This document shows, one piece after another, positions 4,969 through 8,615 of a DNA stretch of 9,553 bases. The stretch comes from Thermoplasmata archaeon (GTDB lineage: Archaea > Thermoplasmatota > Thermoplasmata > Thermoplasmatales > Thermoplasmataceae). Location of the stretch: positions 1-9,553 of the forward strand of contig JAKAUD010000036.1 of the NCBI GenBank assembly GCA_021827885.1, given 5' to 3'. The notes under the pieces were generated by a model. It was not told the origin of the DNA. It did no database searches and saw only the letters and a list, made by a program, of their open reading frames with translations. A program made the position numbers and the translations under genes. The stretch's first letter is position 1; each line of letters starts with the position of its first letter.

Positions 4969-6741
4969 ATGCACATCGCAATTTTAGACCAGGAAAAGTG
5001 CCATCCCAAAAAATGCCATCGTGAATGCCAATATTATTGTCCTCCTGTTAGGAGCGGGACAAAAACAATTGATTTTCCCGGCCCTGATACACAGCCTATT
5101 ATTACAGAATCATTATGTATAGGGTGTGGAATATGCCCCAAGCGATGCCCTTTCGGTGCCATAAAGATCATCGGAATACCGGATGAATTGAACCGTGACA
5201 TTATTCACCAATATGGCCTTAACACTTTCCGCCTTTATTCAATGCCAGTTCCGGAGAAAAATGCCGTGACTGCGATTCTTGGCTCTAACGGCATGGGAAA
5301 GACGACAACAATGAACATTCTCTCTGGCGTTATAATACCTAATTTTGGGGATTATGAATCAAAGCCCGATAAGGACAAAGTCATAGAAAGATATTCAAAA
5401 TCAATTTTGGGACAGTATTTCAGGGATATATATGGTGGGAAGAGAAAGACTGTTCTGAAGAGCCAGTTCGTTGACCAGATTCCCAGGGTAGCGAAGGGGA
5501 CAATAAGGGAAATCCTGGAGAAAAATAACATATCAGGCAAGCTCGACGAGGTGGTTGAGGACCTGAACCTGAAAAATTCACTATCCAAGGATGTGAAAAG
5601 CGCTTCCGGAGGGGAACTTCAGAAACTTGCCATAGGAACTGCGTTCCTGAAGGATGCAGATATTATCCTCATAGATGAGATGACATCCTACCTTGATATC
5701 TCAGAAAGGCTGAACATTGCCAAAAAGATTCAAGAGATGGCAAAGAAGAAGACGCTTTTTGTGGTGGAACATGACCTTGCGATACTTGATTGGATAGCAG
5801 ATTCCATTCATCTCGTTTACGGGCAGACAGGTGCTTATGGAGTTACAGTGAAGCAAAAATCATCGGGAAAGGCGATCAATGAATTCCTCGCAGGGTATTT
5901 ACCGGATGAAAATGTGAGAATAAGGCCATATGCCATTGAATTTGACGAGAAAGGCTTTGTGAGAACCCAGGTAACCCCAGATCTCGTCAACTGGAACAAT
6001 TTTTCATTAACTCTAGGAGATTTCACGCTGGAATCAAGGGCCGGAAAAATAGAATCAAGCTCCGTTGTCGGGGTGCTAGGTGGCAATGCGTTGGGAAAGA
6101 CCACATTTGTCAAGGTTTTGGCTGGAGTTATCGAAGCCAAGGATGCAGTTATTGAACCAAAGCTGAAAATAGCATACAAGCCACAATACATAAGCACTGA
6201 TTTTCCCGGAACTGTTTCCGAACTCATTTATGCTACCGTAAAGGAGAGGTTTGATGACTCTTTCCTCAAGGTTGAATTGTTCAAGCCTCTTGAAATAGAT
6301 TCCTTGATGGAGCAGAATGTATCTTCACTTTCCGGAGGGGAACTGCAAAGGCTTTCCATAGCAATCACACTTGCTACAGATGCAGATCTTTACCTGATGG
6401 ATGAACCATCTGCCAATCTGGATAGCACGTTCAGAATGATCTGTGCAAAGGTTATCAGGAAAATAATGGAATCAAATCGCAAGAGTGCACTAATAGTGGA
6501 TCACGATGTATATTTCATTGATCTTATCTCTGATTCACTGGTGGTTTTTGGGGGGGAACCGGGAAAGCACGGATACACGATTGGACCCATGAGGATGGAT
6601 GAAGGAATGAACACATTCCTGAAAATGGCTAATATAACATTCAGGAGAGACCATAACACAAAGAGGCCCAGGATAAATAAGCTGAACAGCAGCCTTGACC
6701 GGGAACAAAAATACTCAGGAAACTATTATTATAAGGGATAA
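4969..6741 (+). CDS. rli: ABCE1/Rli ribosome-recycling ATPase
   Basis: ABCE1 (RNase L inhibitor homologue) splits post-termination ribosomes into subunits using two ABC domains and an Fe-S domain. Its 590 residues match the family. Fe-S cysteines are C11, C16, C20, C24 and C50, C53, C56, C60. NBD1 has Walker A GSNGMGKT (105-112), signature ASGGELQK (212-219), Walker B IILIDE (232-237) and His269. The hinge RIRPYAIEF is at 317-325. NBD2 has Walker A GGNALGKT (371-378), signature LSGGELQR (454-461), Walker B LYLMDEP (474-480) and His512. The C-terminus ends SGNYYYKG as in other members. NBD1 departs from consensus at Ala212 (usually Leu) and Met238 (usually Pro after the catalytic Glu237). All catalytic residues remain, so it should be active. 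It is eight bases after the preceding gene and two bases before tgtA. Confidence 0.97.
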   Translation: MHIAILDQEKCHPKKCHRECQYYCPPVRSGTKTIDFPGPDTQPIITESLCIGCGICPKRCPFGAIKIIGIPDELNRDIIHQYGLNTFRLYSMPVPEKNAVTAILGSNGMGKTTTMNILSGVIIPNFGDYESKPDKDKVIERYSKSILGQYFRDIYGGKRKTVLKSQFVDQIPRVAKGTIREILEKNNISGKLDEVVEDLNLKNSLSKDVKSASGGELQKLAIGTAFLKDADIILIDEMTSYLDISERLNIAKKIQEMAKKKTLFVVEHDLAILDWIADSIHLVYGQTGAYGVTVKQKSSGKAINEFLAGYLPDENVRIRPYAIEFDEKGFVRTQVTPDLVNWNNFSLTLGDFTLESRAGKIESSSVVGVLGGNALGKTTFVKVLAGVIEAKDAVIEPKLKIAYKPQYISTDFPGTVSELIYATVKERFDDSFLKVELFKPLEIDSLMEQNVSSLSGGELQRLSIAITLATDADLYLMDEPSANLDSTFRMICAKVIRKIMESNRKSALIVDHDVYFIDLISDSLVVFGGEPGKHGYTIGPMRMDEGMNTFLKMANITFRRDHNTKRPRINKLNSSLDREQKYSGNYYYKG

Positions 6742-6743
6742 AA

Positions 6744-8615
6744 ATGGATCTTGTTCACAGGGAAGGGCTTGCAAGGGTTGGAAAATTCTCAACTCCACAC
6801 GGTGTCATAACCACCCCGACAATAATGCCCGTTATCAATCCAAACCTCAGGATATTATCAATCGATGAAATGAAAAAAATGGGTATGGAGGCAATTATAA
6901 CCAACAGCTATATCATACGGAGGAATGAAAATTTAAGAACCCATGCCCAGGAAAAGGGGCTGCACGACCTGATAGGCTTTAACGGACCCATCATGACAGA
7001 TTCTGGCACGTTCCAGAGCTATGTTTATGGCGACATTGAATATGGCAATCTGGAGATCGTTGATTTTCAGGAGCAGATCGGTAGCGACATCTCAACAATC
7101 CTGGACATCTTTTCAGTTCCGGAAGATACGCATGAAAAGGCTGAGAAAGCGGTAATGGAAACGTACAGAAGGATGAATGAGGTCACTACCGAAAGGAAGA
7201 CAATCATTGCAGGGCCGATACAGGGATCTGTTTACAACGATTTGAGGGAAAAGAGTGCAAGGTTGATGTCCGGAACACTGGCAGGATATCTTCCAATAGG
7301 TGGGGTAGTCCCTCTATTGGAGCAGTACCGATATGGAAAATTGTGTGAAATAATCATCAACTCAAAGATAAACGCCTCTTTTAATAAACCGATCCATCTT
7401 TTTGGAGGCGGGCACCCAATGTTCATGGGAATGGCAGTGCTTCTCGGAGTTGATATCTTTGATTCTGCGTCTTATGTAAAATATGCACGGGATGGGAGAA
7501 TGCTCTTTCAGGAGGGGACGAGGGATCTCAAGGAAATAATAGAATTTCCAATGTGGAGCCCGCTTTATGGGAAATATACTGCCAGGGAACTGAAAGAGGC
7601 ATCCCTTGATGTAAGAACAAGGGAACTTGCACGGCATAATCTCTTCACGATTTTCATGGAACTGAAAGAAATAAGGGAACGAATTTATGAGCAGACCCTG
7701 TGGCAATACGTGGAGGAAAAATCACGGGCGCACCCCTCGCTCTACGCAGCTTTCAGGTCTATCCTTAAATACAGCGAGAAACTGGAGCCGTTCTTCGAGT
7801 TGTATAGAAAACCTCCATTATACTACTTTGATGAAATAACGGAGATGAATCCTTATTTCACCAGGCTGAAAGAATTCCGATCCAGATTCATCGGGAGTGG
7901 CGAAAAAGTAAGTTATGTGCCCGATGGAGCATGGCAACCATCGAGACTTTCAAGTAGGTTCATTTCAGAGCATTATGAGAAAAACAGCAATCCTTACCTT
8001 ATCAAGTGGATGGGCATCGAAGTGCCCGTAGAACTTGAAGAAGCCTACCCCGTTGAACAGGTAATAGACGTCATGCACTATGAGGAAGGCTTTGCTGATG
8101 ATCCGGAAACCGTTGAAAAGTCAGAAGGGGAAAGGGTAAGGAATTTTGATCTTGAAAAAATCAGGGCATTGTGCGATTTTCAATTTGGAATCGGAACCGG
8201 CAAGATTGTTTTCCCGCCTGAAACTGAAATAGTCAAGTCAAGAGCCACTGGCAGGATCAGGACAATAAGCCTGAACGGTAAATTCCTTGCCACAATGAGA
8301 GCACACGACGGTTTTCTCGGGCTCCACATAGAGGGGGGGAAAAGACTTCAGTCTGTGTCAAAATATCCCGAAAACAGGATTGTAGTTGATGATGAAAGCG
8401 CGGATTACAATGCAAGAGGATACAATGTATTCCGTAAATTTGTTGTAGATTTTGATCCAAATATAATTCCATTAAATGATGTGATAGTGGTAAACTCAAA
8501 GGACGAACTGCTCGCCATTGGAAGATCCATGATGTCAGGGATTGAACTCGCAACGTATAGAAGCGGTTTGGCGGTAAGTGTCAACCACCACACGCAGGAA
8601 AGAGGTCAGGCTTGA
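6744..8615 (+). CDS. tgtA: Archaeosine tRNA-guanine transglycosylase lacking the zinc-site cysteines
   Basis: ArcTGT swaps guanine 15 in the tRNA D-loop for preQ0, the first step to archaeosine. It has 623 residues, somewhat longer than the 582-residue Pyrococcus horikoshii enzyme. Both catalytic aspartates are kept, D86 in TDSGTFQS and nucleophile D240 in DIFDSASY, at a constant offset of nine from Pyrococcus D95 and D249. At the same offset the zinc ligands C279, C281, C284 and H307 correspond to M270, S272, Y275 and H298, so only the histidine survives although the neighbours (FP-x4-KYTARELKE) align well. The linker and C2 region is about 310-540 and the PUA domain about 545-623. Full length and both aspartates argue against the paralogue ArcS. 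ATG follows the rli stop after two bases, with AAGGG at 6733-6737 as ribosome binding site. Confidence 0.95.
   Translation: MDLVHREGLARVGKFSTPHGVITTPTIMPVINPNLRILSIDEMKKMGMEAIITNSYIIRRNENLRTHAQEKGLHDLIGFNGPIMTDSGTFQSYVYGDIEYGNLEIVDFQEQIGSDISTILDIFSVPEDTHEKAEKAVMETYRRMNEVTTERKTIIAGPIQGSVYNDLREKSARLMSGTLAGYLPIGGVVPLLEQYRYGKLCEIIINSKINASFNKPIHLFGGGHPMFMGMAVLLGVDIFDSASYVKYARDGRMLFQEGTRDLKEIIEFPMWSPLYGKYTARELKEASLDVRTRELARHNLFTIFMELKEIRERIYEQTLWQYVEEKSRAHPSLYAAFRSILKYSEKLEPFFELYRKPPLYYFDEITEMNPYFTRLKEFRSRFIGSGEKVSYVPDGAWQPSRLSSRFISEHYEKNSNPYLIKWMGIEVPVELEEAYPVEQVIDVMHYEEGFADDPETVEKSEGERVRNFDLEKIRALCDFQFGIGTGKIVFPPETEIVKSRATGRIRTISLNGKFLATMRAHDGFLGLHIEGGKRLQSVSKYPENRIVVDDESADYNARGYNVFRKFVVDFDPNIIPLNDVIVVNSKDELLAIGRSMMSGIELATYRSGLAVSVNHHTQERGQA

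Follow-up and report, generated by a model that had tools for sequence, protein, structure and literature searches.

Order-wide loss of the zinc-binding cysteines from the archaeosine tRNA-guanine transglycosylase of Thermoplasmatales

The tRNA-guanine transglycosylases (TGTs) are described as having two hallmarks, one of them the binding of zinc, which is also counted as part of their tRNA-binding scaffold (passages in PMC6165067). The archaeosine enzyme (ArcTGT, or TgtA) of Thermoplasma acidophilum is reported, in passages of PMC6313347 and PMC11298593, to be active on both G13 and G15 of tRNA-Leu. Our literature search, which covered titles, the starts of abstracts, and passages (with most subscription journals outside its coverage), found no text on the loss of zinc from ArcTGT. 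Here we examine the tgtA gene on contig JAKAUD010000036.1 of a Thermoplasmata archaeon (GCA_021827885.1). We refer to the whole stretch of 9,553 nucleotides as the window. Its TgtA does not have the hallmark site CxCxxC...H; instead, it has Met270, Ser272, and Tyr275, along with His298. We find that the cysteines are missing across the order Thermoplasmatales (in the wide sense), and that they appear to have been lost several times within the phylum.

The protein scores 505 bits against TIGR00432, the equivalog model for TgtA, whose curated cut-off is 350 bits. It does not reach the models for ArcS (121.1 of 440 bits for NF040592 and 18.4 of 600 bits for NF053620) or for the queuine-type TGT (TIGR00430; 115.1 bits versus a cut-off of 306.75). 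Judged by these models, the open reading frame (ORF) is a full-length TgtA. We used phmmer to align it to ArcTGT from Pyrococcus horikoshii (PDB 1iq8). M270, S272, Y275, and H298 fall on C279, C281, C284, and H307, with an offset of 9 throughout, and the same offset places D86 on D95 and D240 on D249. The single gap within residues 4–381 is near residue 377, which is past the zinc site. We take Asp95 and Asp249 to be the catalytic pair of the P. horikoshii enzyme, and Cys279, Cys281, Cys284, and His307 to be its zinc ligands. The original prediction, which was made from the letters of the window, held that the ORF encodes an archaeosine TGT, that all three zinc cysteines are gone while the histidine remains, and that misalignment is unlikely to be the reason. 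The model score, the codons, and the constant offset bear it out on each of these points.

We then compared the window's TgtA with the best 120 of its 2266 homologues (121 rows, including the query). None of these rows has a cysteine at the first or second ligand position, and only two have one at the third. The second position is serine in all 121 rows, and H298, D86, and D240 are each kept in 121/121 as well. The first position varies (R, Y, E, M, Q, F, W, I, T, and others), and so does the third (Y, F, R, N, H, S, and others). By their labels, the zinc-free rows include T. acidophilum (P0098), T. volcanium (P0092), Ferroplasma (P0114), Cuniculiplasma (P0008 and P0039), Caldiplasma (P0078), and Thermogymnomonas (P0087). 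None of the three cysteines is present in any of the 18 loci taken from named genome records. Clustered at 90% identity, the window's protein falls in P0001, which represents 7 member sequences.

To map the loss of the motif, as had been proposed, we surveyed genomes centred on the phylum Thermoplasmatota; each of our protein searches listed 120 matches. The TgtA model was over its cut-off in 177/200 genomes of the class, 110/117 genomes of a phylum sample, and 104/117 genomes of the order. At E ≤ 0.001, which may admit ArcS-like relatives, the counts were 196/200, 115/117, and 115/117. We aligned 136 distinct TgtA stretches, picked to cover families and genera, along with the window. The order contributes 55 rows (including the window) from families f1 (the window's own), f2, f3, f55, and f56, and none from f54. 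There is no ligand cysteine in 53 of the 55 (two of these have an alignment gap at the third position); one row has only the third cysteine, and one is cut. His298 is kept in every order row except the cut one (54/55), Ser272 in 52/55, and Pro273 in 50/55. Trp271 is present in all 28 rows from f1, and a Tyr or Phe takes its place in f2. Elsewhere in the class, all three cysteines are present in 52/53 rows, the exception being locus L045. By these alignments, the loss of the zinc ligands is order-wide and not peculiar to the window's genome.

Two genomes of the order had unusual matches. The single f54 genome has a TGT-like frame without the cysteine motif (L190), flagged with one internal stop, and no ordinary TgtA was among the matches listed for this metagenome-assembled genome (MAG). 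Another MAG, from f1 (G331; contamination given as 5), has two full-length TgtA matches, on contigs C97 and C99, which may mean either that the bin is mixed or that the gene is truly duplicated.

The site has also been lost outside the class. Of the 29 phylum rows from outside the class, 19 have all three cysteines, nine do not, and one is cut. The nine are all rows from f41 (4/4), f47 (3/3), f45 (1/1), and f33 (1/1); a second f33 genome (L210) likewise lacks the zinc cysteines. When we built a tree of 133 rows with the zinc columns removed, the order fell on one side of a branch with an SH-aLRT support of 97. On this tree, which is unrooted and has many weak deep forks, the cysteine state requires at least five changes by a quick method. 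We set aside the tip for L045 because it is a probable artefact, which reduces five losses to four. The zinc motif region of L045 (around 827–917) is a 58% C stretch, unlike its sister L088, and there is no CxCxxC in the other reading frames of L045; a sequencing or assembly error is probable. We take cysteine to be the ancestral state because P. horikoshii has it, as do most of the rows from the phylum. With L045 set aside, the tree would imply at least four separate losses: in the order, in a clade of f41 and f47, in f45, and in f33.

The loss in f41 extends to its relatives. Among the best 120 of the 5116 relatives of an f41 protein, none has a cysteine at the three ligand columns, all 120 have Tyr or Phe instead of the histidine, and all 120 retain both catalytic aspartates. 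Four of these relatives have Poseidoniales-type names (P0280, P0320, P0325, and P0359). As a control, we used L065, a zinc-type TgtA from a different family within the class, and the best 120 of its 7523 relatives all had CCCH. TgtA from f41 (L111) is also longer, at about 750 amino acids, and it matches the TgtA model only over roughly the first 345 of 441 positions; by this comparison, the middle of the protein has diverged as well.

Several observations suggest that the zinc-free enzyme is functional. We compared the window's tgtA to four related loci (L003, L004, L005, and L021; ~78–81% protein identity). The proportion of nonsynonymous differences (pN) was 0.12–0.13 and the proportion of synonymous differences (pS), which is saturated, was 0.84–0.87; pN over residues 262–302 was 0.11–0.16. 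(L005 and L021, whose values were the same, are probably a single sequence.) The coding sequence is under purifying selection. ArcS, which carries out the next step of the pathway, was found in the window's genome (621 bits versus a cut-off of 600) and in the five relatives that we searched, and it was over the cut-off in four of these six genomes. The predicted fold of the window's TgtA is confident. The activity of ArcTGT from T. acidophilum was reportedly shown by complementation of a T. kodakarensis deletion. Because that enzyme is reported to be active, and the sequence labelled with its species lacks the site, we do not count CxCxxC...H as defining TgtA. The zinc-free TgtA of the order is probably active, and we infer the same of the window's protein.

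We think it likely that this is a working ArcTGT without structural zinc, that the loss goes back to the order's ancestor, and that metal-free contacts hold the loop in place. The window's TgtA would exchange guanine 15 of tRNA (and possibly guanine 13) for preQ0 without binding the metal. Within the loop that once held the cysteines, Ser272, a conserved small hydroxyl residue, would face the retained His298, and an aromatic residue (Trp271 in f1, Tyr or Phe in f2) would fill space together with Pro273. The original prediction had suggested hydrophobic packing by Met270, Trp271, and Tyr275. We rejected this in detail, as Met270 and Tyr275 both vary, but the tryptophan is conserved in f1, and Ser272 and Pro273 are conserved in the order. 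As for compensating changes, we found order-specific residues at Y182, F227, and Y322, but none of them recurs in the independent losers, so we do not claim any compensation.

Several points weigh against this proposal. The pairing of Ser272 and His298 is not shared by all zinc-free proteins: in f33, the kept histidine is paired with a Phe at the second ligand position (L122, and also the second genome, L210), f45 has Ala and Tyr instead of the pair, and all proteins in the Poseidoniales set (best 120 of 5116) lack the histidine, with 106/120 lacking Ser or Thr as well. On the helix that carries His298, two residues have become acidic in f1, at 309 (27/28 rows) and 312 (26/28), and these could be new ligands; this idea is tempered by the arginine at 309 in all 14 rows from f2. 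ArcTGT from T. acidophilum is reported to be insoluble in E. coli (passages in PMC11298593), which could mean that it is unstable or that a factor is missing. Also, P0098 is equated with the assayed enzyme by its species label only, and our literature search found no metal analysis of any zinc-free TgtA.

Other TGT genes are present in these genomes. We did not find a second TgtA, with or without the motif, in the window's genome: PF01702 gives only TgtA and DpdA (the MAG is 88% complete). The TgtA model has three matches there at E ≤ 0.001, of which TgtA is the one listed, and the other two are presumably ArcS and DpdA. DpdA (L209) retains CxCxxC...H. Its neighbours on contig C180 include a DUF6884 protein, a PD-(D/E)XK protein, and a transposase, and surrounding ORFs resemble a helicase, a DNA methyltransferase, and a tyrosine integrase (named by eye only). 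This mobile-looking region is a possible island for 7-deazaguanine modification of DNA, or for defence, in an archaeon. Also, genomes from f2, f3, f55, and f56 (L186–L189, L191, and L192) contain a second TGT of about 360 amino acids, with a bacterial or queuine-type look, that keeps the zinc motif. Of seven second copies that we fetched, six have the motif; the copy from f54 does not.

If the pocket still bound zinc or another metal, its ligands would have to be His298 and Ser272 together with other side chains, from other parts of the protein or across the dimer. The retention of His298 when the cysteines are gone, together with the glutamates that f1 gained at 309 and 312, would fit with this. 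However, no query-aligned column is above 30% cysteine in the order; the biggest gains of histidine, at H5 (48% versus 6%) and H614 (33% versus 0), are both far from the loop in sequence; Glu309 is replaced by Arg throughout f2; and the first and third ligand positions vary, unlike a metal site. We consider a residual metal site improbable, and the window's TgtA would then contain no bound metal. Alternatively, TgtA might have lost or changed its role, with a different TGT of the same cell producing archaeosine. A changed role was the second of two options in the original prediction, the other being a fold that is stable in this lineage without zinc. DpdA, with its intact site, and the second TGTs in four other families of the order are candidates for such a replacement. 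But DpdA scores just 24 bits against the TgtA model and adjoins a transposase, and no bacterial-size second TGT was among the matches listed for f1 genomes. The score of the window's TgtA, its invariant catalytic residues, purifying selection, the presence of ArcS, and the activity of the T. acidophilum enzyme (as reported in passages of PMC6313347 and PMC11298593) all favor the option of a zinc-free fold. We consider a working zinc-free enzyme to be much likelier than a changed function, which seems very improbable.

Why was the zinc lost? The order includes thermoacidophiles, and the original prediction raised the possibility that losing a cysteine-bound metal suits an acidic, iron-rich, or oxidising niche. 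On this view, such conditions inside the cell would have made cysteine-bound zinc costly. TgtA proteins from the order are poor in other cysteines as well: outside of the zinc site, they have 0.25 (f1), 0.49 (f2), 0.45 (f3), 0.06 (f55), or 0.35 (f56) cysteines per 100 amino acids, versus 0.92 in zinc-type TgtAs. Two more common cysteines (Cys171 and Cys236) are absent from the order's TgtAs, so some of the loss of cysteine in TgtA is general. However, the Poseidoniales, which are marine, have also lost the site, and f41 and f47 have 1.30 other cysteines per 100 amino acids. The zinc ribbons of S27e and L37ae retain four cysteines in 8/8 genomes that we tested (six of these are from the order, including the window's own), the window's FUR-family protein and RLI keep their cysteine pairs and clusters, and DpdA keeps its site. 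We reject the niche as a general cause and regard it as an unlikely, minor explanation for the order. Because the ribbons, FUR, RLI, DpdA, and most of the second TGTs keep their cysteine sites, there is no support either for the idea that the cell is short of zinc or avoids it. A relaxed need for the metal in TgtA fits better. Finally, a sequencing or alignment error, which does seem to explain L045, has a negligible chance of explaining the window: independent sequences refute it, as all 18 loci from named records and 53 of the 55 order rows show no ligand cysteine.

Features of tgtA, its upstream neighbour, and the DpdA gene of the same genome (residue numbers are those of TgtA; positions are in the window except for DpdA)
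Feature	Position	Strand	Basis
tgtA, archaeosine tRNA-guanine transglycosylase (ArcTGT), 623 aa	6744..8615	+	ORF list, Pfam, NCBIfam TIGR00432
TGT catalytic domain	residues 10-331	+	PF01702, over cut-off
C2 patch domain	residues 472-542	+	PF14810, over cut-off
PUA domain	residues 545-616	+	PF01472, over cut-off
Asp86 codon (Asp95 of P. horikoshii ArcTGT)	6999..7001	+	alignment; D in 121/121 rows
Asp240 codon (Asp249 of P. horikoshii ArcTGT)	7461..7463	+	alignment; D in 121/121 rows
Met270 codon, zinc ligand 1 position (Cys279)	7551..7553	+	codon reading, alignment; Cys in 0/121 rows
Trp271-Ser272-Pro273, conserved tripeptide in place of xCP	7554..7562	+	conservation counts in f1 and order rows
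Ser272 codon, zinc ligand 2 position (Cys281)	7557..7559	+	codon reading, alignment
Tyr275 codon, zinc ligand 3 position (Cys284)	7566..7568	+	codon reading, alignment; Cys in 2/121 rows
His298 codon, retained fourth zinc ligand (His307)	7635..7637	+	alignment; H in 121/121 rows
RLI/ABCE1 ribosome-recycling ATPase, 2-nt gap to tgtA	4969..6741	+	NF009945, 811 bits
DpdA (L209, contig C180)	9914-11167	-	NF041059, 406 bits vs 200

RLI is just upstream of tgtA in 17/18 related loci, and the remaining locus begins at tgtA. This arrangement suggests a single transcript for ribosome recycling and tRNA modification. The window also encodes dihydropteroate synthase (TIGR01496; 3349-4407, minus strand), whose pterin-binding domain is preceded by roughly 100 extra residues at the N-terminus.

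As far as the alignments can tell, the loss is real and extends through the whole clade: a TgtA that is otherwise unremarkable, and probably active, no longer has a metal site that is a hallmark of TGTs, and this part of the family seems able to do without the metal. At least four times within a single phylum, the site has disappeared and the catalytic residues have stayed, which provides natural zinc-minus and zinc-plus pairs for probing the metal's role. The pairs could also be used to ask if the loss of zinc is connected with the Thermoplasma enzyme's unusual specificity for two sites. We speculate, as a long shot, that loss of the zinc clamp loosened the positioning of the substrate in the order, so that ArcTGT acts at G13 as well as G15. 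If so, then the zinc-free TgtAs of the Poseidoniales should be multisite, and the zinc-type TgtAs of sister orders should modify G15 only. For annotators, CxCxxC is unfit as a criterion for calling a TgtA functional. The interest of the loss lies in its recurrence, in the active case from T. acidophilum, and in this testable link to specificity.

Among the described systems, the window's TgtA is most like ArcTGT from T. acidophilum, which belongs to the same family: P0098 (assigned by its species label) is 52% identical and has the zinc-free site xWSPxY...H. In contrast, ArcTGT from P. horikoshii (PDB 1iq8 and 1j2b) has Cys279, Cys281, and Cys284 at the zinc site. ArcS resembles the window's TgtA in being related to TGT and in acting in the same pathway, but it is a separate gene in the genome, and the window's protein is far below the ArcS cut-offs. 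The zinc-free (C-) forms of ribosomal proteins such as S4 are a parallel from outside the family, in that a structural zinc site was lost in some lineages while the protein was retained (PMC3087516). According to the abstract of that paper, both forms of S4 occur together in 26/660 genomes, and gene transfer was how the C- form spread. Unlike S4, the window's tgtA tracks the family groups on the tree, and it is the sole TgtA found in its own genome.
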